64,000 nucleotides of DNA from Sulfurovum sp. enrichment culture clone C5 (GCA_001493195.1 FAXN01000038.1:1-64000); one strand, 5' to 3'; counted from the first letter of the stretch, positions 11,339 to 23,825 are shown. Notes: generated from the letters alone by a model not told the origin. Translations and numbers: made by a program.

Positions 11339-11689
11339 CTATTCGCCAATAACCACAACAGCGATGGCGAAACCTCCGTCATGACTGATGGATAGTGAGC
11401 TATTAGTATGTGGGAAGTTTGGAGCGACTTTTTCGCTTAGTGTAAAACGTGGAGCGCCTTTGGAGTTTTTGGCGATGATGATGTCATGGAAGCCCAGTTC
11501 TGCGCCTATGCCACACCCAAATGCTTTACTGATAGCCTCTTTTGCAGCCCAAAATCCAGCTACACTTGCACTGTTTTTTGCCAATGCTATCTCATCCTCA
11601 TTTAAAAACCTCTCTTTGAAGGTATTTCCATGCTTTTCTATGGCTTTTTCTATACGGTTAATCGCGATGATATCTGTTCCTATTTTCAT
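11339..11689 (-). CDS. acpS: Holo-[acyl-carrier-protein] synthase
   Basis: MKIGTDIIAINRIEKAI...AKNSASVAGFWAAKEAISKAFG...LSISHDGGFA. Confidence 0.9.
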   Translation of the reverse strand: MKIGTDIIAINRIEKAIEKHGNTFKERFLNEDEIALAKNSASVAGFWAAKEAISKAFGCGIGAELGFHDIIIAKNSKGAPRFTLSEKVAPNFPHTNSSLSISHDGGFAIAVVVIGE

Positions 11690-11745
11690 GGGTATTAGTT
11701 TAGCATAGGTTTTAGTTAAAAATGATAAAATTGAATTAAGAAAAA
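11551..11745. repeat. Direct repeat A, original copy (acpS 5' region and upstream)
   Basis: ~95% identical by eye to 13062-13255. Confidence 0.9.
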
Positions 11746-11834
11746 TGGGATTGGTGCAGTGTGTATGGTATTTAGCGAATCAGACACAGAAACAAAACCC
11801 AAAAGCTACCACCAAAATCTTCGATTTGCACAAT

Positions 11835-11869
11835 TATATGTAAAGAAAATTGCAAAATCTTTACATATA
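11835..11869. promoter_or_regulatory. Palindromic operator upstream of fic
   Basis: TATATGTAAAG-13 nt-CTTTACATATA, perfect 11-bp arms. Confidence 0.6.
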
Positions 11870-11898
11870 GTGTATAATATGTTAAAAAAAGTGAGAAA
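11852..11898. repeat. Direct repeat B, copy 1
   Basis: 47 nt, 43/47 identical to 13018-13064. Confidence 0.85.
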
Positions 11899-11938
11899 TT
11901 TTGACATGTTGGGTGATACAAATAGTGGAGTGCTATAG

Positions 11939-13009
11939 ATGAAAGAGTTTATACCAAATAAATTGCCAATCCAAAAAGATATAGAGACAAAAGAGATTTT
12001 AAGAGCTACAATATCAGCTCACAAAACACTTGCAGAGCTAAAAGGAATTGCGAATTCTTTGCCAAATCAAAAAATAGTTATCAATACTTTGGTACTACAA
12101 GAAGCCAAAGATAGTAGTGAGATTGAGAATATCATCACTACACATGATGAGATTTATCGCTCTAGCATTTCAGATAGTTCACTTAGTAGCGACATCAAAG
12201 AGGTACAAAACTATAAAGATGCTCTGACACTAGGGTTTGAAATCATCAAAACAAAACAGATGCTTAGTATTAATCACATCAAAGAAATTCAAGCTACACT
12301 AGAGCAAAACGATGCAGGATTTAGAAAACAAAGTGGAACTGTACTCAAAAATCCAAAAACAGGAGAGATAAAACTTATCCCACCACAAAACCCAAAAGAT
12401 ATAGAAGAGCTTATGTCAAACCTTGTGGAGTATATCAATGATGCAAGTTTGGAAGAGTTTGATAGCCTAGTCAAGATGGCAATCATCCATTATCAGTTTG
12501 AATCAATCCACCCTTTTTATGATGGTAATGGACGAACAGGAAGAATTATCAATATCTTGTATCTGGTGTTAGAAGAGTTATTGGATGTACCAATACTCTA
12601 TTTAAGTCGGTATATCATTAGGCACAAAGCTGATTATTATAGATTGCTCAGTGATGTAAGTTTCAATGATGGATTAAATGAGTGGATATTGTTTATCCTT
12701 AGAGGTGTCGAAGAGATAGCAAGAGAAACAATCCAGACTATCAAAAGTATCGAAAATTTGATGAATGAAACAAAAAACATCATCATAGAACAAAAACCAA
12801 AGATGTATAGCAAAGATTTGCTAGAAGCACTTTTCTATCACCCATATACTAAAAGAGCTTTTATAGAAGAGCAACTAGGTGTATCAAGACCGACAGCAAC
12901 TAATTATCTTAATGAGTTGGAAAAAATAGGCATTTTATCAAGCAAAAAGATAGGTAAAGAGATATTCTATATCCATACCAAACTTTTTGATTTGTTTAAG
13001 GATATGTAA
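11939..13009 (+). CDS. Fic/DOC family protein with N-terminal inhibitory helix and C-terminal winged-helix domain
   Basis: Fic motif HPFYDGNGRTGR; inhibitory motif SSEIEN ((S/T)xxxE(G/N)); C-terminal GVSRPTATNYLNELEKIGIL helix-turn-helix. Confidence 0.9.
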   Translation: MKEFIPNKLPIQKDIETKEILRATISAHKTLAELKGIANSLPNQKIVINTLVLQEAKDSSEIENIITTHDEIYRSSISDSSLSSDIKEVQNYKDALTLGFEIIKTKQMLSINHIKEIQATLEQNDAGFRKQSGTVLKNPKTGEIKLIPPQNPKDIEELMSNLVEYINDASLEEFDSLVKMAIIHYQFESIHPFYDGNGRTGRIINILYLVLEELLDVPILYLSRYIIRHKADYYRLLSDVSFNDGLNEWILFILRGVEEIARETIQTIKSIENLMNETKNIIIEQKPKMYSKDLLEALFYHPYTKRAFIEEQLGVSRPTATNYLNELEKIGILSSKKIGKEIFYIHTKLFDLFKDM

Positions 13010-13017
13010 ACAAAATA

Positions 13018-13064
13018 GCAAAATCTTTACATGTAGTGGATGTTATGTTAAAAAAAGTGAGAAA
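13018..13064. repeat. Direct repeat B, copy 2 (operator-like copy after fic)
   Basis: GCAAAATCTTTACATGTAGTGGATGTTATGTTAAAAAAAGTGAGAAA. Confidence 0.85.
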
Positions 13065-13255
13065 ATCCAGCCACACTTGCACTGTTTTTGCCAATGCTAT
13101 CTCATCCTCATTTAAAAACCTCTCTTTGAAGGTATTTCCATGCTTTTCTATGGCTTTTTCTATGCGACTAATCGCGATGATATCGTTCCTATTTTCATGG
13201 GTATTAGTTTAGCATAGGTTTTAGTTAAAAATGATAAAATTTGATTAAGAAAAAA
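13062..13255 (-). pseudogene. acpS 5'-fragment duplicate (direct repeat A, copy 2)
   Basis: Near-identical to 11551-11745 with single-base deletions that break the frame; lacks the rest of acpS. Confidence 0.88.
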
Positions 13256-13354
13256 GAATAAGAATGACAGATAATAACAAGATTTGTCTACAAGAAGTGA
13301 ATTTAAAAGTCATGCGATATCAGAAATATTTTAGATTACAAAGGAGATATATAG

Positions 13355-13513
13355 ATGAGTTTTGGTTTGTTGCGGGAATATAATTTTGATCTGAGACCTT
13401 CGGGTTATGAGCCCGACGAGCATTTAAGCAAAATTCAAGATTTTATAGATTATAATTTGCTTAACATACTTCCTCCACCTCTTGTAAAAGTGCAAATGAG
13501 GGAGTGCTTATGA
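13355..13513 (+). other. Short ORF (52 aa, MSFGLLREYNFDLRPSGYEPDEH...) containing a tRNA-fMet fragment
   Basis: AAGGAG RBS, ATG, stop overlapping the start of the Abi frame (ATGA). Confidence 0.35.
13395..13421 (-). repeat. 27-nt exact fragment of initiator tRNA (anticodon arm region)
   Basis: GACCTTCGGGTTATGAGCCCGACGAGC identical to 26557-26583. Confidence 0.9.
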
Positions 13514-14385
13514 TTCCTTACACCAAACCACATTTATCCTTTCAGGAACAAATCAACCTTTTAAAAGATAGAAATTGAATCATTCCAAACGAAGCTTATG
13601 CCATGCAAAAACTTCAGCACATAAGCTATTATAGATTAAGTGCATATTTTTTGCCTTTTCAGTCTCAAAAAGATAGATTTGATGATGGTATTACTTTTAA
13701 CGATATTGTGGAACTTTATCATTTCGACAAAGAACTTAGAATATTAACTTTTGGTGCAATAGAAAAAATAGAGATATTTTTAAGAACTTCTATCGCATAT
13801 AATTTTTCAAAAGAACATGATGTTTTTGGATATACATGTAAAACAAACTTTTGTTGCAATGATGAAAATTTTAAGTGGCTAACAGAAGATATAACCAAAG
13901 AAACCAGTCGATCAAAAGAGACTTTTATCAAGCATTTTAGAGACAATTACATAGAAAAAGATTTACCTATCTGGATGGTGGTAGAGACTATATCTTTTGG
14001 AACATTGTCAAAGTTTTATACCTCTCTTTGTCCTCAAACTGAAAAGCTTATACTTGACGGGATAAAGTTGCCGTCTTTTGTGTTTAAAAATTGGATTCAT
14101 GTTTTTTCGTATGTCAGAAATATATCAGCTCATCATAGCAGACTATGGAATAGACAATTTGTCATCAAAGCAAAAATCCCAAAACATAAAATTGAATTCA
14201 AAGGCTTGATAAATGACAAGTATTATACTTTTGCGGTTATGACACATTATGTTTTAAGTGCTATCAATGATACTTTTGATTTTAAAGATGAGTTAAAAAG
14301 TTTGTTTGAGAAATATCCTAAAATTGATAAAAAGGCTATGGGTTTTGTGGATGATTGGGAAAAGTTGGAGATGTGGCAGAGATGA
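13510..14385 (+). pseudogene. Abi_2 (AbiD/AbiF-like) abortive-infection protein interrupted by in-frame TGA at 13576-13578
   Basis: MIPYTKPHLSFQEQINLLKDRN*IIPNEAYAMQKLQHISYYRLSAYFLPF...NISAHHSRLWNR; both halves in the same frame. Confidence 0.75.
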
Positions 14386-14427
14386 GTAATGAGTATTTTA
14401 AGTTATAGAGGAGCGGGTTTATAAACA

Positions 14428-17400
14428 ATGAGTGCTATAGTACCAAACTGGAATATATTTAAAACAAAATTTAATGATAATCCAACATATTACTTTGAGT
14501 ATTTTTGTTATTTGCTTTTTTGTATTGAGTATAGTAAGCCTCAAGGTGTATTTCGTTATAAAAATCAATCAGGTATTGAATGGAATCCTATTGAAGTGAA
14601 TGGCAGAATAATAGTAGCTCAATGTAAGTTTTATGACACATCAATAGGTAGTCATAAAGATGAGATCATTGAAATGCTTAATACTATACAAAAAAATTAC
14701 ACGACACCATGTGAATTAAAATTTTATACCAATCAAGACTGGGGTCAAGGTAAAAAGCAAGGAACAAATAATTCACAAGTAAAAATAGACATTGAAGATA
14801 AAGCTCAAAAGTATGGTATCACTATCGATTGGCGAACAAATGAGACTTACTTTTTATCTCTAGATGTAGCATTCAATCAAGATCTGATGAAACATTTTTT
14901 TACTGATAGAAGTATCTATGACTTAGTGTATGACAAACAAATACATACTCAAAACATTTTAAAAGATATTCGTACGGACATTGATTTTAAATCTCAAAAA
15001 ATCGAGATTGATAGAAGTGGTGAAATCAACCAAATTCAAAAGGAACTTGAAAATTATCAGGCATTGATCATAAGCGGTATTGGTGGTGTAGGCAAAACGG
15101 CTATTGTAAAAAAGCTTTATGAAAAAATTGAAAATGATGAACCACTCTATCTATTTAAAGCCAGTGAATTTGAAACGAATCAAATTGATAATCTCTTTGG
15201 TATATATTCGTTGCAAAAATTTATGGATGTGCATACTCATTATAATACAAAAGTTGTTGTAATTGATTCGACTGAAAAAATACTTGACCTTAATAATGCC
15301 AATCCTTTTAAAGAGTTCATATCTACACTATTGGATAATCAATGGAAAATACTTTTTACAACACGATACGCTTATTTAGATGACTTGAAGTATCACTTGC
15401 AACAGAATTTACAAATAATCCCATACGGAGTAGATATTCAAAACCTTTCAGCAGAAGCATTACATTCTTTGAGTCAAAAGTATCACTTTACTCTACCTCA
15501 AGATGAAAAGCTACTAGAGCTTCTCAAAAACCCTTTTGAGCTTAAAGGCTATCTATCTCTCTATACAGGTGAAGTAATCGATTATCAAACCTTTAAAGCT
15601 AAACTGTGGAATCAAAATATTACAAAATCAAATCCACAAAGAGAGTTGTGTTTTGTGAAGCTTGTATCAGCAAGAGCCAACGAAGGACAGTTTTATGTAA
15701 ATATTGAGTGTAGTACCAACGCACTTGAAGAGCTACTCAAGGATGGTATTTTAGGTTATGAAACAGCAGGGTATTTTATCACCCATGATAAATATGAGGA
15801 GTGGGGATTAGCGTATATTATCGAAAGAGAGTTTATCAAACGAAAAGATGTCAATAACTTCTTTGAGCAAATTGGTAGCTCATTGCCCATTCGTAGAGCT
15901 TTTAGAAATTGGGTATCGGAAAAACTTTTGCTCAATGATGGGACAATAGAAAGCTTTATTGAAGATGTGATAGACAATGGAGAGATAGAGTCATTTTGGA
16001 AAGATGAAGTTTTTGTTTCTGTTTTATTATCAGAGTATTCGCAAACATTTTTTAAAAACTACGATACAGAACTCAAAGCCAATGACTATAAACTCTTGAA
16101 ACGCATTGCATTTTTATTACAGATAGCATGTAAAGAGGTCGATGATAGTATCTGGAAGCAGGCTGGTATACACAATATACATGCTATGAAAGATATAAAA
16201 TACATTTTTACCAAACCGATAGGTAGTGGGTGGATTAGTTTCGTAAGATATATATGGAAAAATATTGATACTCTACAATTGCAACATATCAATACAATTT
16301 TGCCAGTCTTATCAGATTGGAATGATAATGTAAAAAGTGGTGACACTACACAAGCCACTTCTTTAATTGCATTAAAATATTACAATTTAATTTATAGCGA
16401 AGAGTATAAATATAGCTTGAAAGACAATATCTCTACAATATGTAAAGTTATTATTAATGGTTCAAATGAAATACAAGAAGAGTTAAAAGATATTTTTGAT
16501 GAAATCATAAAGAACAAATGGAAAAGTCATAGCGACAAATATTATGAATTATCAAAAATAATTTTAGCTAAAATCGATGGATGGTCAATCTCAAAAAAAA
16601 TAACTAAAGAAATACTAGAATTAGCCAAGCTATTTTGGACAAAAACACCTAGAAAAGTTGAAGATAATGGTGTATTTTCTCATTATGAACGAGAAGTTGT
16701 TGAGGATGCTTTTAATCTTGTTAATGAATACGAATTCAAGTATTTTCCGTCAAGTGCATATCAAACACCTATCTTATCCTTATTAAGAAATGATTTTAAA
16801 AATACAGTATATTTTATTTTGAATTTTATAAATCAATCTGTTGAAAATTATGCTAAGTCTGATTGGGAAAATAGGTTTCACGATAGCAGTGTCTTTGAAG
16901 TTGATTTGTATATCGATAACGAAGTTTATATACAATATCATAGTCAAGCATTATGGAATATATACAGAGGTACAAGTTCTCCTGTATCACCTTACTTATT
17001 GCAATCCATTCATATGGCATTAGAAAAACATCTCTTAGAAATAGCACCTTTGATAGATTCTAAGACTTTAGAGATGTGGCTAATTTATCTGCTTAAAAAT
17101 TCTAAATCCTCTTCAATTTCTGCAATTGTTGCAAGTATTGTTTTAGCCAACCAAGAAAAAACTTTTAATGTTGCCGCCATACTTTTTAAAACTAAAGAAT
17201 TTATCCGAGCAGACCTAATCAGACATATGAAAGATAGTTATGAGGTAAAGTCTTTGAATAGCATGGGATATGGTCTAAATGTTTGGCACCAATTTTATCA
17301 AGATGAACGATTAAAAACTTGTGAAGATAAACATAGAAACTCACATTTAGAAAGACTATTTTTAAATTACCAACTTTTTAGAACAAAAGAAATTAGCGAA

Positions 17401-19140
17401 GAAGAGTCAGAAAAAAGACAAAAAATATTATGGGATATTTTGGATAACTACTATAAGCAATTACCTGATGAAGAGAGTCAATCTGAAGAAGATAGAATTT
17501 GGAGAATGGCATTAGCAAGAATAGATAGAAGAAAAATGGATATAGAAACAGAAAAAGTTGATGGAGGAGTTCAAATCGCATTTAATCCAAAGTTATCACC
17601 TGAGCTTCAAAAATATAGTCAAAAAGCACAGGAAAACTCTCATAATGCAATTAAATATACATCGCTATATCTTTGGTCTATAAATAAAATAGAAAACAAT
17701 CAAGATTGTAAAAAATACACAATTTATGAAGAAAATCCTCTTTTAGCATTAGAACAAATTAAAGAAGTTATAGCAATACCACATGAGGAAAGAGATTTTA
17801 TCTTTCAAGATGAGATTTTTCCAAATACAAGTATTATTTTATTAAGAGACTATGACAAGTTGCTTTCAAGTGAAGACAAAGAACTTTGTAGAGATATAAT
17901 TTTAGAAGTTGCTCGTTTACCACTATCAGAAAACTATCACTATCAAGTTTCAGATGGAGTTGATAAAACTATTAAATATTTACCTATGTTACTCATTTAT
18001 TCTCCAGAACTCAAAAACGATATAAAAATACTTTTATTATTAAATCTTTTTGATGATTATCAGATAGGAATGGGTGGAAAACATTTTTATGATTTTCCGA
18101 TAGAGGCTATTAATACATATTTTATTAGTGAATATAACTCTTTTATAGTGGCATATTTACTTTTGAAGCCTAAATATAAAGAGTTAATGAAATCTAATTA
18201 TTATGGACATAAACGAGTGAGTAAACAAGACTTACTTGAAAACTTTTTTCAATCAAACGAAGAGATTTTTGAGAAGTTTGTTTCTGATGAATTAAGATTA
18301 TCTGATAATGAAATTAAAACAATTCAATTGGATATTTTTATTGTTGTTTTTAAAATGATAGTTACTTTTAAATCTACTATAAAAAAAGAGTTTACTCAAA
18401 AGATTATAGAAATATTATGCAAAAATATTTTTAATAAAGCAGATGATAAAGTGGATTATGATGCAAAACAACAGTTTATTGACAACTATGCACTTTTAAT
18501 ACTAAAAGCAGATAAAAGTGATATTCAGTTTTACCTGCAACCATTGATTGATTCATTTAAGCCAACGGAAGATATAACAAGTTTACTAACTCAGTTGATT
18601 TATTCTCAAGATAACATAAATAACTACGATAATTTTTGGCATATATGGGAACTCCTTGAGAATAACATAATAGATATTTGCAAAGATGGAGAAGGATACC
18701 GTAATGTTGATGAAATAGTAAAAGTTTATTTATTGGCTTGGGGACGATATGGTTCACTTTGGAAAGACACTGCTAAAGAGTGGCACTCACTAAAAGAAAA
18801 AGATAAAAGATTTTTCAAACGAATGGCAAAAGAAATCGGTCATTGCCCATCAACACTCTCTTCTATTTCAAAAATTCTAACAAGCGTTGGCTCCCCCTAT
18901 CTCAATGATGGAGTTAGTTGGATTGCCAATATGCTAAGAGACAATAAAAACTTATGGAGTGATTCTTTAGAAACGAATACTCTTTATCATTTAGAAACTT
19001 TGATACGGAAATATATATTTGAAAACAGTCAAAAGATCAAACATGAAACCAAAGCCAAACAAGATGTAGTTGAGATATTGACCTTTTTAGTTGAAAGAGG
19101 TTCAGCTATTGGCTATATGCTACGTGAGAGGATTTTATAA
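14428..19140 (+). CDS. Antiviral STAND NTPase (Avs-like, closest in appearance to Avs4) with N-terminal PD-(D/E)XK/Mrr-type nuclease
   Basis: N-terminus GVFRYKNQSGIEWNPIEVNGRIIVAQCKFYD nuclease core, Walker A GIGGVGKT, Walker B KVVVIDS, WKILFTTRY sensor, long helical C-terminal repeat region; 1570 aa. Confidence 0.75.
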   Translation: MSAIVPNWNIFKTKFNDNPTYYFEYFCYLLFCIEYSKPQGVFRYKNQSGIEWNPIEVNGRIIVAQCKFYDTSIGSHKDEIIEMLNTIQKNYTTPCELKFYTNQDWGQGKKQGTNNSQVKIDIEDKAQKYGITIDWRTNETYFLSLDVAFNQDLMKHFFTDRSIYDLVYDKQIHTQNILKDIRTDIDFKSQKIEIDRSGEINQIQKELENYQALIISGIGGVGKTAIVKKLYEKIENDEPLYLFKASEFETNQIDNLFGIYSLQKFMDVHTHYNTKVVVIDSTEKILDLNNANPFKEFISTLLDNQWKILFTTRYAYLDDLKYHLQQNLQIIPYGVDIQNLSAEALHSLSQKYHFTLPQDEKLLELLKNPFELKGYLSLYTGEVIDYQTFKAKLWNQNITKSNPQRELCFVKLVSARANEGQFYVNIECSTNALEELLKDGILGYETAGYFITHDKYEEWGLAYIIEREFIKRKDVNNFFEQIGSSLPIRRAFRNWVSEKLLLNDGTIESFIEDVIDNGEIESFWKDEVFVSVLLSEYSQTFFKNYDTELKANDYKLLKRIAFLLQIACKEVDDSIWKQAGIHNIHAMKDIKYIFTKPIGSGWISFVRYIWKNIDTLQLQHINTILPVLSDWNDNVKSGDTTQATSLIALKYYNLIYSEEYKYSLKDNISTICKVIINGSNEIQEELKDIFDEIIKNKWKSHSDKYYELSKIILAKIDGWSISKKITKEILELAKLFWTKTPRKVEDNGVFSHYEREVVEDAFNLVNEYEFKYFPSSAYQTPILSLLRNDFKNTVYFILNFINQSVENYAKSDWENRFHDSSVFEVDLYIDNEVYIQYHSQALWNIYRGTSSPVSPYLLQSIHMALEKHLLEIAPLIDSKTLEMWLIYLLKNSKSSSISAIVASIVLANQEKTFNVAAILFKTKEFIRADLIRHMKDSYEVKSLNSMGYGLNVWHQFYQDERLKTCEDKHRNSHLERLFLNYQLFRTKEISEEESEKRQKILWDILDNYYKQLPDEESQSEEDRIWRMALARIDRRKMDIETEKVDGGVQIAFNPKLSPELQKYSQKAQENSHNAIKYTSLYLWSINKIENNQDCKKYTIYEENPLLALEQIKEVIAIPHEERDFIFQDEIFPNTSIILLRDYDKLLSSEDKELCRDIILEVARLPLSENYHYQVSDGVDKTIKYLPMLLIYSPELKNDIKILLLLNLFDDYQIGMGGKHFYDFPIEAINTYFISEYNSFIVAYLLLKPKYKELMKSNYYGHKRVSKQDLLENFFQSNEEIFEKFVSDELRLSDNEIKTIQLDIFIVVFKMIVTFKSTIKKEFTQKIIEILCKNIFNKADDKVDYDAKQQFIDNYALLILKADKSDIQFYLQPLIDSFKPTEDITSLLTQLIYSQDNINNYDNFWHIWELLENNIIDICKDGEGYRNVDEIVKVYLLAWGRYGSLWKDTAKEWHSLKEKDKRFFKRMAKEIGHCPSTLSSISKILTSVGSPYLNDGVSWIANMLRDNKNLWSDSLETNTLYHLETLIRKYIFENSQKIKHETKAKQDVVEILTFLVERGSAIGYMLRERIL

Positions 19141-19182
19141 ATGAAGATATTGGCAGATACGAGGTAGCAATGACAACTTTAT

Positions 19183-19408
19183 AGATTCCTGCCCCTGCCT
19201 TCGCAGGAATGACAGCAGGAATGACGAAATAGATCCTGATGAAATCTCGCAGGGCTTTAGTCCGAGGACAAACAAGTTCAGGATGACGCAAAATATGGAT
19301 TGCTTCGTCACTTTGTTTCTCGCAATGACACCCCCCCACCGACGCGGTTATACTTTACTACAATTACATCTTAGCACTTAAAATAAATTGCATTTTGACA
19401 TATTTTTA
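19183..19408 (+). repeat. Repeat module copy 1
   Basis: gattcctgcccctgccttcgcaggaatgac...gcaatgacaCCCCCCCaccgacgcggttatact...cattttgacatattttta; shared with 20101-20358 and 21078-21258. Confidence 0.9.
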
Positions 19409-19464
19409 AACATCTATTTCCGTAAGCGTTATAATCAATCCATTAAACTACATAGGAGAATAGT

Positions 19465-20037
19465 ATGGTGGATATGGTTGTATTTGAAGATATCAAAAAT
19501 AAACTCATAAAATACAAAGAAGAGTTTGCTCTTTTGGATAGTGATATAGCTGATATATATGGTGTACAAACAAGAGACATAAACAAAGCTGTTACAAATA
19601 ATCCCGATAAATTTCCAATCGGCTATATCATGCAGCTAACAAAAGATGAAAAAGCAGAGGTTGTGGAAAAATTCCACCACCTTGAGAAAATCAAATATTC
19701 ACCGCATTTGCCAAAAGTTTTTACGGAAAAGGCACTTTATATGTTAGCGACCATTTTAAAAAGCAAGCAAGCAACAAAAACAACTATTGAGATCATCGAA
19801 ACTTTCGCAAAGATAAAAGAGTTGTCAAGAAACATCAATGCTCTCGAAAATGCAAAAACACCGGAAGAGCAAAAAGCAATAGCTAAAAATGTTGGAGAGA
19901 TATTCGAAGAGATTATAGACATAGATCCTGTTGTGGAAAAAAGAGGAGATGAGATCATAGAGGTTGAAAACAGAATTGAGCTAAATATAGGTTTTGTAAA
20001 AGTTAGTAGGACGGTTAAAAGTAAAAAGTCCACCTAA
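19465..20037 (+). CDS. ORF6N-type DNA-binding domain protein
   Basis: ALLDSDIADIYGVQTRDINKAVTNNPDKFPIGYIMQLTKDE...FTEKALYMLATILKS. Confidence 0.7.
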   Translation: MVDMVVFEDIKNKLIKYKEEFALLDSDIADIYGVQTRDINKAVTNNPDKFPIGYIMQLTKDEKAEVVEKFHHLEKIKYSPHLPKVFTEKALYMLATILKSKQATKTTIEIIETFAKIKELSRNINALENAKTPEEQKAIAKNVGEIFEEIIDIDPVVEKRGDEIIEVENRIELNIGFVKVSRTVKSKKST

Positions 20038-20100
20038 ATGGTGTCAGGTAATACCTAAAAGGTGTCAGGTAATGCTAATGCTAGAAAATAAGGCTACTCT

Positions 20101-20358
20101 TTGTGGATTCCTGCCCCTGCCTTCGCATGGGTGACGGCAGAAATGACGGCAGAAATGACGAAATAGATCCTGATGAAATCTCGCAGGGCTTTAGTCCGAG
20201 GACAAACGAGTTCAGGATGACGCAAAATATGGATTGCTTCGTCACTTTGTTTCTCGCAATGACACCCCCCCCACCGACGCGGTTATACTTTACCACAATT
20301 ACATCTTAGCACTTAAAATCACAAGAGGTTAGAAATATTGCATTTTGACATATTTTTA
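20101..20358 (+). repeat. Repeat module copy 2
   Basis: Nearly identical to 19183-19408, C8 tract, ends cacaagaggttagaaatattgcattttgacatattttta. Confidence 0.9.
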
Positions 20359-20410
20359 TACCATACATTTGTTTTTTGATAATATTTTATAGATTTAATA
20401 TAAAGGAGTA

Positions 20411-21004
20411 TTGATGGACGCAAATGTCAGTTTATCGGAAAATATAGCCATAGACGATAAGATTTTTATAATCAGAGGATTGCAGGTAATGATAGATAAA
20501 GATTTGGCGGAGTTATACCAAGTTGAAACCAAAAGAATCAATGAGCAAGTCAAAAGAAATAGTGAGAAGTTTCCTGTGGACTTTATGTTTAGATTAACAG
20601 ATGATGAGACAAGTCAACTGGTCGCAAAATGCGACCGGTTTAGATTATTGAAACATTCATCTTCAAATCCTTATGTGTTTACCGAGCATGGCGTATATAT
20701 GCTATCAACAGTACTTAAAAGCAGTGTTGCTACTGATATAAGTTTAGCAATAATGCGAACTTTCGTAAAATTAAAAAATCAATCTATTCCATACTTTGAT
20801 ATCATCAAAAGACTTGAAAGGGTAGAAACGAACGACAAAGAAACAAGAAATTTACTTCAAAAAGTGATACAAGCGGTATCAATTATGCAAGATATTCAAG
20901 ATGAGGCACAAGTGTATACTAAAAAGATAGGTTTTAAAATTAATGATGAGATAGCCATGGTTAATGGTGGGTTAGCAAACCCACCCTACGGAAAACAAAC
21001 ATAA
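20411..21004 (+). CDS. ORF6N domain-containing protein
   Basis: IRGLQVMIDKDLAELYQVETKRINEQVKRNSEKFPVDFMFRLTDDE...PYVFTEHGVYMLSTVLKS. Confidence 0.85.
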   Translation: MMDANVSLSENIAIDDKIFIIRGLQVMIDKDLAELYQVETKRINEQVKRNSEKFPVDFMFRLTDDETSQLVAKCDRFRLLKHSSSNPYVFTEHGVYMLSTVLKSSVATDISLAIMRTFVKLKNQSIPYFDIIKRLERVETNDKETRNLLQKVIQAVSIMQDIQDEAQVYTKKIGFKINDEIAMVNGGLANPPYGKQT

Positions 21005-21044
21005 AAACATACCAATATGCGTAGGGTGTGTTTGCCAACACACC
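20966..21044. repeat. Composite palindromic element (two hairpins plus a pairing stem)
   Basis: GGTGGGTT-AGCA-AACCCACC (20966-20985), CCCTACG (20984-20990) with CGTAGGG (21020-21026), GGTGTGTT-TGCC-AACACACC (21025-21044). Confidence 0.7.
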
Positions 21045-21077
21045 ACACCAACACCATAAAATAAGGCTATTTTTTAT

Positions 21078-21258
21078 GGATTCCTGCCTTCTCAGGAATG
21101 ACGGCAGGAATGACGAGCAGGGCTCTTTTTGGATTGCTTCGTCACTTTATTTCTCGCAATGACACCCCCCCCACCGACGCGGTTACACTTTTCTACAATT
21201 ACATCTTAGCACTTAAAATAACAAGAGGTTAGAAATATTGCATTTTGACATATATTTA
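21078..21258 (+). repeat. Repeat module copy 3 (shorter)
   Basis: ggattcctgccttctcaggaatgac...gcaatgacaCCCCCCCCaccgacgcggttaca...aagaggttagaaatattgcattttgacatat. Confidence 0.88.
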
Positions 21259-21392
21259 ACAAAAAATCTTAAAATAGTATACAATGTAGCATTAAATGAT
21301 TAAAGAGTAAAATTTAAGGATTAATTTTAGAGCAAAGTGATAAGTCATTTAAATATTTGAGTATCTATAAAAAGGTTTATAAGGAATAAGAT

Positions 21393-22427
21393 ATGCAAAA
21401 AGTAAAACAACAGCTTACGATGCAAGACGAAATGACCGAATTTTTGCTATATACCGCCCCAAGTGGTGATATAAAAGTAGAAGTGTTTTTGCATGATGAG
21501 ACGCTTTGGCTTACCCAAGAGAGAATGGCAGAGCTTTTTGGAGTACAAAGACCAGCTATTACAAAACATTTAAAAAATATTTTTGATGATGGGGAACTTG
21601 ATGAAAATGTGGTTAGTTCCATTTTGGAACATACCACTCTACATGGTGCAATAGAGGGAAAAACACAAACTCAAAAAGTCAAATATTATAACCTTGATGC
21701 TGTCATAGCGGTTGGATATAGAGTAAATAGCAAAAAAGCCACACAGTTTCGCATCTGGGCAACAACTATACTCAAAGAATACATCATCAAAGGTTTTGCC
21801 ATGGATGATGAGCGACTAAAAAACGGCAGGTTTTTTGGCAAGGATTATTTCAAAGAGCTACTTGAGAGAGTCCGATCTATACGAGCAAGTGAGCGAAGAA
21901 TATATCAACAAATTACCGATATATTTGCAGAATGCACTATAGACTATGACCCAAAAAGCGAAATCACACAAAACTTTTATGCAATGGTGCAAAATAAATT
22001 TCATTATGCTATCACGGGACAAACAGCTGCAGAGATAGTCTATGAGAGTGTAGATAAAAACAAGCCTTTTATGGGGCTAAAGACATGGAAAAAATCATCA
22101 ACAGGCAGGATACTCAAATCTGATGTAGCTATCGCAAAAAACTATTTGGATGAGGATCAGATAAAAAGGCTCGAGAGGACTGTATCGTCTTATTTTGACT
22201 ATATAGAAAATCAAATAGAGATGAGAAATACTTTTAACATGGAGCAACTTGCCCAGTCAGTAAATAAATTTCTTGAGTTTAATAATTTTGAAATCTTGGA
22301 AGGTTTAGGCAAAGTATCACATAAAAAAGCCGAACAAAAAGCTATCCAAGAATATGAAGAGTTCAATAAAACACAAGAGATAGAATCTGATTTTGATAAA
22401 GAGATAAAAAAGCTTTTATCGAGGTAA
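21393..22427 (+). CDS. RhuM family virulence-type protein
   Basis: KVEVFLHDETLWLTQERMAELFGVQRPAITKHLKNIF...YYNLDAVIAVGYRVNSKKATQFRIWAT; classic RhuM motifs. Confidence 0.92.
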   Translation: MQKVKQQLTMQDEMTEFLLYTAPSGDIKVEVFLHDETLWLTQERMAELFGVQRPAITKHLKNIFDDGELDENVVSSILEHTTLHGAIEGKTQTQKVKYYNLDAVIAVGYRVNSKKATQFRIWATTILKEYIIKGFAMDDERLKNGRFFGKDYFKELLERVRSIRASERRIYQQITDIFAECTIDYDPKSEITQNFYAMVQNKFHYAITGQTAAEIVYESVDKNKPFMGLKTWKKSSTGRILKSDVAIAKNYLDEDQIKRLERTVSSYFDYIENQIEMRNTFNMEQLAQSVNKFLEFNNFEILEGLGKVSHKKAEQKAIQEYEEFNKTQEIESDFDKEIKKLLSR

Positions 22428-22469
22428 AAACATTTCATGCCTTTGCATGGGTGACGAGGATGTGAGAGT

Positions 22470-23825
22470 TTACTCAAACATCCATTCGACTACTTTCGCG
22501 ACATCTTCGGCGATGAAGCATTTTATCTGTGTATCTTCTAGCGGTTTGGCTGGAATGATGGCTTTGTTGAAGCCTTGAGTTTGCATCTCTTTTAATCTCA
22601 AGGAGAGATTACTCACATCTCGTATCTCGCCTGTGAGGCTCACTTCTCCCAAAAATACGGTTTTAGAGCTCAATTCGCGGTTACGGTAACTACTCAAAAT
22701 CGCTGCAATTACTGCTAAGTCTGCGCTAGGTTCATTTATCTTGATACCGCCACTCACATTGATATATACATCATAAGTTCCCAAAGGCAGGTCAAGTTTC
22801 TTTTCGAGCAATGCTAAAAGCATAGATAGGCGGTTGTTGTCAAATCCCGTGGAACTTCGTCTAGCTCCTCCATAACTCTCACTCACAAGAGCTTGAATCT
22901 CTACTACGATAGGGCGACTTCCTTCGAGTAATATGGTCAAAGCTGAACCTGCTTGAAGTTTGGTTTTGTTATAAAACTTACTCCCTATCGTCTTGGCATC
23001 ATTTAAGCCGTTTTTATTCATTTCGAATATTCCTACTTCATTTGTAGAGCCAAAGCGATTTTTGAACCCTCGCAGGAGTCTGAGTTCACTATTGCTATCC
23101 CCTTCAAAATAGAGCACTGTATCCACCATATGCTCCAAAACTCTTGGTCCTGCTATGGAACCGTCTTTGGTGATGTGTCCGATGATAAATATAGGTATAT
23201 TTTGGCTTTTTGCTATTCGCATAAGCTCAAATGTCACACTTCGCACCTGTGCGACAGATCCTGGAGAGGAGGGGAGTTCATCACTATATAATGTTTGAAT
23301 GGAGTCTATGACTATAAAGCCGTATGATTTTTGGAGTATTTCACTTAGGATATTTGAGAGATTTATCTCGCTAAGTAAAAATAGATTTTGTGCATTTGCA
23401 TCAAGTCTATCCGCTCTTAACTTTATCTGCCCCAAAGACTCTTCGCCAGATACGTATAAAACATCTTTTTTGTTTTTGGCGATATTGCCTGCGATTTTTA
23501 GAAGCAGGGTGGATTTGCCAATACCAGGACTTCCGCCGATGAGAGTAAGTGAGCCTTGTACTATGCCGCCACCAAGAACGAGGTCAAGTTCACTGCTTCC
23601 GCTTGCAAATCTATGGAATTCATCTTGGACTATATCGGTAATAGGCATAGCTTTGGTGGTATAAGTAGAATTGTTTGAAATCTCTTGTAATATCTCTATC
23701 TGAGCTGAACTTAGCTCCATCATACTATCCCATGTACCGCAATTGGTACATTTTCCAACCCATCTAGGACTTTGAAATCCACACGATTGACACTCAAATA
23801 AAGTTTTTTTCTTTGCCATAATCAC
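22470..23825 (-). CDS. radA: DNA repair protein RadA
   Basis: CQSCGFQSPRWVGKCTNCGTWDS zinc finger, GGSPGIGKSTLLLK, KNRFGSTNEVGIFEM. Confidence 0.95.
   Translation of the reverse strand: MIMAKKKTLFECQSCGFQSPRWVGKCTNCGTWDSMMELSSAQIEILQEISNNSTYTTKAMPITDIVQDEFHRFASGSSELDLVLGGGIVQGSLTLIGGSPGIGKSTLLLKIAGNIAKNKKDVLYVSGEESLGQIKLRADRLDANAQNLFLLSEINLSNILSEILQKSYGFIVIDSIQTLYSDELPSSPGSVAQVRSVTFELMRIAKSQNIPIFIIGHITKDGSIAGPRVLEHMVDTVLYFEGDSNSELRLLRGFKNRFGSTNEVGIFEMNKNGLNDAKTIGSKFYNKTKLQAGSALTILLEGSRPIVVEIQALVSESYGGARRSSTGFDNNRLSMLLALLEKKLDLPLGTYDVYINVSGGIKINEPSADLAVIAAILSSYRNRELSSKTVFLGEVSLTGEIRDVSNLSLRLKEMQTQGFNKAIIPAKPLEDTQIKCFIAEDVAKVVEWMFE

Follow-up and report, generated by a model that had tools for sequence, protein, structure and literature searches.

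Judged by its sequence, the 1570-aa protein encoded at 14428-19140 of the window (the whole 64,000-nucleotide stretch of DNA analysed) is a full-length Avs4 (AVAST type 4), an identity that goes beyond mere resemblance to Avs4, and it very probably acts as a single-gene anti-phage sensor in a portal-triggered abortive defence, with a mosaic history probably shaped by recombination. The present analysis shows that the protein belongs to the family, that its catalytic residues and those of Walker A and Walker B are intact, that its gene has a defence-type neighbourhood at a variable site, and that its history is mosaic. The intact reading frame described in an earlier note on this DNA was borne out, and the gene and its product can be laid out as follows.

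14428-19140, + strand: avs4 gene, complete (1570 aa, ATG start, one ORF open throughout)
14428-14877, + strand: N-terminal Mrr-like PD-(D/E)XK-type nuclease region, ~aa 1-150, from alignment to 8dgf and homologs
14578-14580, 14620-14622 and 14626-14628, + strand: codons of the nuclease residues E51, Q65 and K67, respectively, from the alignment
15022-15627, + strand: STAND NTPase core, ~aa 199-400, from the nSTAND3 match and motif alignment, enclosing Walker A (GIGGVGKT, 217-224), Walker B (KVVVIDS, 275-281) and a sensor-1-like motif (FTTR, 310-313)
15628-17271, + strand: linker/winged-helix-like region and first helical repeats, ~aa 401-948, named after the 8dgf alignment
17272-18795, + strand: sensor block, ~aa 949-1456, a mosaic segment of recent common origin with other Campylobacterota Avs4 genes, from a silent-site test

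Assignment to Avs4 is supported along the entire chain. The PADLOC Avs4 profile (PDLC02169) matches residues 4-1570 with 1906 bits (profile positions 2-1570 of 1570), the NCBIfam Avs4 equivalog (NF041815) scores 1900 bits against a cut-off of 1500 (profile positions 1-1579), and a sequence search of the PDB returned as its sole match 8dgf_A, 'ATP-binding protein Avs4', with 1366 bits (query 4-1570, chain 2-1587), full-length matches that exclude a chance similarity. The generic Pfam nSTAND3 model, by comparison, is barely over its threshold (27.5 bits, cut-off 27.2). Other Avs and STAND families gave no comparable score, and an identity as Avs1, Avs2, Avs3 or Avs5 is rejected, PADLOC reporting Avs4 alone for this protein at E values up to 0.1. 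The profile comparison that the earlier note had proposed thus upholds its subgroup call, with PADLOC and NCBIfam both returning Avs4 end to end.

The motifs on which that note had relied were also recovered, namely the nuclease core SGIEWNPIEVNGRIIVAQCKFYD, which holds the catalytic-type residues E51, Q65 and K67, the GIGGVGKT P-loop, and KVVVIDS with D280. These residues, together with FTTR, align with 8dgf and with the nuclease-bearing homologs (six homologs for E51, Q65 and K67), and by sequence the N-terminal segment corresponds to the nuclease portion of 8dgf. Structure prediction added little to this picture. AlphaFold models were run on few homologs (L002, L003) and both are too poor for fold comparison; that of the nuclease region (pLDDT 37.7, two sequences only) has an element order compatible with a PD-(D/E)XK fold, and that of residues 475-1570 (pLDDT 42.7, low confidence) is all helical. 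The latter, taken with the full-length 8dgf match, favours the helical repeats postulated earlier for the remainder of the chain.

Comparison with the Arcobacteraceae homologs (L002, L006 and L007) revealed a markedly uneven similarity along the protein. The nuclease end is 81-85% identical and the sensor block (aa 1000-1440) 82-86%, vs 59-60% for the centre (aa 160-950) and 60-66% for the C-terminal end, with residues ~401-948 being the part most diverged from these homologs. Four-fold degenerate sites follow the same course, with identities of 59-80% over aa 1-160, 33-39% over 161-400, 36-38% over 481-800 and 77-92% over 1101-1350. A segment scan, seeking the most deviating stretch at third positions of otherwise identical codons with 200 shuffles as the null, placed such a stretch at aa 948-1456 for L006 (silent match 0.89 inside and 0.61 outside; chi-square 94, shuffle maximum 20) and at aa 943-1447 for L003, and identified low-match segments at aa 117-950 for L002 and 117-982 for L007. 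The same scan of the more distant homolog L005 gave no deviating segment. The shuffles ignore correlation between neighbouring sites and few alleles were available, so that all these breakpoints are approximate.

The avs4 gene is thus best explained as a mosaic, in which the nuclease (~aa 1-117) and the sensor block (~aa 950-1450) would share a more recent Arcobacteraceae ancestry than the centre, and recombination is the best explanation for how a common Arcobacteraceae-type nuclease end and sensor block came to be joined to an older, diverged centre. The case is based on silent-site similarity and branch lengths: in a tree of the centre the window protein sits on a long branch, excluded from a group of five that has full support, and in a tree of the sensor it is a short branch within an unresolved cluster. 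Topologies of the segment trees are not in significant conflict (AU p = 0.12 for the sensor and 0.26 for the nuclease), and this would also suit an origin of the uneven similarity in selection differing between domains, with effector and sensor under tighter constraint than the centre. Such an account seems rather unlikely, since the pattern recurs at silent third positions where the amino acid is the same, and the disparity at four-fold sites between aa 1101-1350 and aa 161-400 is unexplained by selection at the protein level. A search of open-access papers found none on recombination of the Avs4 sensor or on Avs in Arcobacter.

According to two papers (PMC12724215, PMC12931631), Avs4 senses the phage portal, and the genomes of phage and host alike are cut by the nuclease effectors of Avs1-4. 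By analogy with the family, the C-terminal helical-repeat sensor of the window protein would bind newly made portal protein during infection, portal binding would lead the STAND ATPase to oligomerise, and the oligomer would activate the N-terminal Mrr-like nuclease to cut both phage and host DNA, resulting in abortive immunity and protection. Because every checkable catalytic position is kept, the sequence offers no reason to doubt this mechanism.

The earlier note had described the sensor as divergent, and this holds relative to 8dgf, to which identity is 35% over aa 1000-1440, falling to 8% over aa 1251-1300, vs 47% over aa 160-950; it does not hold within the phylum, where the block is not unique but 71-86% identical in other Campylobacterota Avs4. 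With such low identity to 8dgf the ligand could differ, although the different ligand suggested in the earlier note is speculative. A further observation concerns a Mu-type prophage in the same genome (L048, G000:C21:18000-37000), which carries terminase, portal, and other head and tail genes.

L048:6677-8017, - strand: prophage portal (PF06074, 143.7 bits; phrog_113 portal)
L048:8014-9621, - strand: prophage terminase, in the same prophage region

This portal is a resident candidate ligand for the window Avs4. Either the prophage is silent and expresses no portal, or the window Avs4 ignores this particular protein. Retuning of the sensor block to another phage protein within an otherwise Avs4-like mode of action would account for the coexistence of portal gene and sensor, as well as for the block departing further from 8dgf than any other part, and a precedent is found in a Klebsiella Avs2, for which binding to an unrelated second phage protein has been reported (PMC12724215). 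Even so, retuning is considered unlikely: the NCBIfam equivalog assignment lies well over its cut-off, divergent sensors are also expected in distant hosts where portals differ, and repression of the prophage without portal expression would make the coexistence weak evidence. An extension of this idea, in which the ~500-aa sensor block is a recombining Campylobacterota cassette joined to varied Avs4 bodies and effectors (nuclease or membrane) and sensing a non-portal or additional phage protein, is similarly improbable. Portal sensing remains the preferred reading.

The genomic setting of avs4 is an insert between acpS and radA, whose features are the following.

11339-11689, - strand: acpS, left flank of the insert
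11690-22469, unstranded: insert of 10.8 kb between acpS and radA, at a hotspot for defence cargo
11939-13009, + strand: SoFic-type Fic protein gene (PADLOC SoFic, 395 bits; Pfam Fic_N, Fic and SoFic-like_C)
13085-13254, unstranded: second copy of the acpS 5' end with its upstream DNA, separated by the Fic gene from the original (11575-11745; 97% identity)
13510-14385, + strand: AbiD/Abi_2 gene, 43 bp upstream of avs4 (PADLOC AbiD, 235 bits; Pfam Abi_2, 199 bits)
19465-22427, + strand: right part of the insert, with two ORF6N-domain genes (19465-20037 and 20411-21004) and a RhuM-family gene (21393-22427)
22470-23825, - strand: radA, right flank of the insert

Comparison of this locus (window 11690-22469) with further acpS-radA loci (L060, L061, L062 and L063) established its variability. 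The gap is a mere 24 bp in seven congeners (G314, G401, G252, G365, G399, G251 and G403), while two genomes have other cargo: in G402 a ParE toxin and a type II restriction-modification pair lie in a gap of 5.1 kb, and in G139 a gap of 6.8 kb holds genes for a type IIG restriction enzyme and a multicopper oxidase as well as an ORF6N and a DUF2971 gene. The junction is therefore a hotspot whose cargo is exchangeable and mostly of the defence type. Repeats within the insert are abundant. Besides the acpS duplicate, a second pair is found at 11811-11898 and 12977-13064, the latter overlapping the 3' end of the Fic gene, which suggests that the insert was built by steps of tandem duplication or recombination. 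An intergenic repeat of ~200 bp occurs in three copies, at 19177-19404, 20099-20358 and 21066-21258 (…GGATTCCTGCC…, …TTGCTTCGTCAC…, …CACCGACGCGG…), one preceding each of the two ORF6N genes and one the RhuM gene.

Read-through of the AbiD gene reveals an in-frame TGA at codon 23 (13576-13578); this gene may be broken, may start at an internal ATG (13603), or may contain a sequencing error. The broken-looking neighbour and the wealth of repeats could be taken to mean that avs4 itself has lost its defence function or is decaying, a most improbable proposition for a frame that is open over 4.7 kb, keeps all its catalytic residues and is covered by its profile end to end. An intact Avs4 is the far better reading.

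Avs4 is scarce among relatives of the host. A sample of 60 relatives from the genus and family yielded no further genome with a match over cut-off; at the order level Avs4 is present in 7 of 400 genomes, including that of the window, and in the family of G292, apparently Arcobacteraceae, in 6 of 104. Such a rare and patchy distribution fits a mobile defence gene. No relative of Avs4 turned up in a scan of viral contigs. Many weak matches of the phylum search (E ~1e-4) involve the P-loop region only and were not counted as Avs4.

Several of the loci recovered are of interest for their arrangement. Avs4 adjoins KilA-N and Fic genes inside a type I restriction cluster in L041, and is placed after a KilA-N gene in L042. 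Varied N-terminal effectors have already been described for Avs proteins. At L040:987-5573 and L003:3-4397 a transmembrane-like N-terminus replaces the nuclease, and the L040 gene overlaps at its start with a type IIG restriction gene. The nuclease end is also encountered elsewhere: L046:5582-6085 encodes a remnant of 167 aa, an Avs4 nuclease standing by itself, next to an apparent IS3-type transposase pair (the transposase judged by eye), and at L049 (G457:C120:5022-5702) a nuclease end of the Avs4 type (profile 1-222, 220 bits) belongs to a frame of 865 aa that falls short of a full Avs4.

Few bacterial proteins are as clear a counterpart of the eukaryotic NLR immune receptors as the Avs proteins. 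The Avs4 family is already known, and the Campylobacterota copy adds another member to it, with the mosaic and the hotspot site as additions of moderate interest. An Avs4 from this phylum, with a sensor common across families yet diverged from that of 8dgf, offers a useful test of the breadth of portal recognition. The mosaic points to recombination as a means of swapping the effector and sensor ends, potentially a fast route to changed specificity, and the acpS-radA site is a simple place in which to find more defence genes in the genus.

Placed beside known systems, the window protein most directly resembles the Avs4 of 8dgf, with which it is collinear over aa 4-1570 and 43% identical over that span (in an alignment built from the PDB matches), the architecture along the full length and the nuclease and ATPase motifs being the same; it differs in a gap in the nuclease region (~aa 110) and in the sensor block, merely 35% identical. 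The Arcobacteraceae proteins (L002/G292, L006/G237 and L007/G134) are closer, at ~69-70% identity overall, sharing the nuclease and sensor block to the extent given above, but depart from it in their central part, just 59-60% identical, and in their gene neighbours, L006 and L007 being preceded by a KilA-N gene and L006 also followed by a Fic gene. Membrane-type Avs4 proteins (L003/G556 and L009/G195) have in common with it the Avs4 ATPase, the repeats and the sensor block (74-84% identical in the sensor), whereas a hydrophobic N-terminus with transmembrane-like segments stands in place of the nuclease. The converse arrangement is found in a PD-Lambda-4_A protein (L045:5417-9145, G145), a fusion that adjoins a type IIG restriction gene: its N-terminus is a nuclease end of the Avs4 type (274 bits against the Avs4 profile, aa 1-242), while the remainder is not Avs4 but PD-Lambda-4_A (740 bits).
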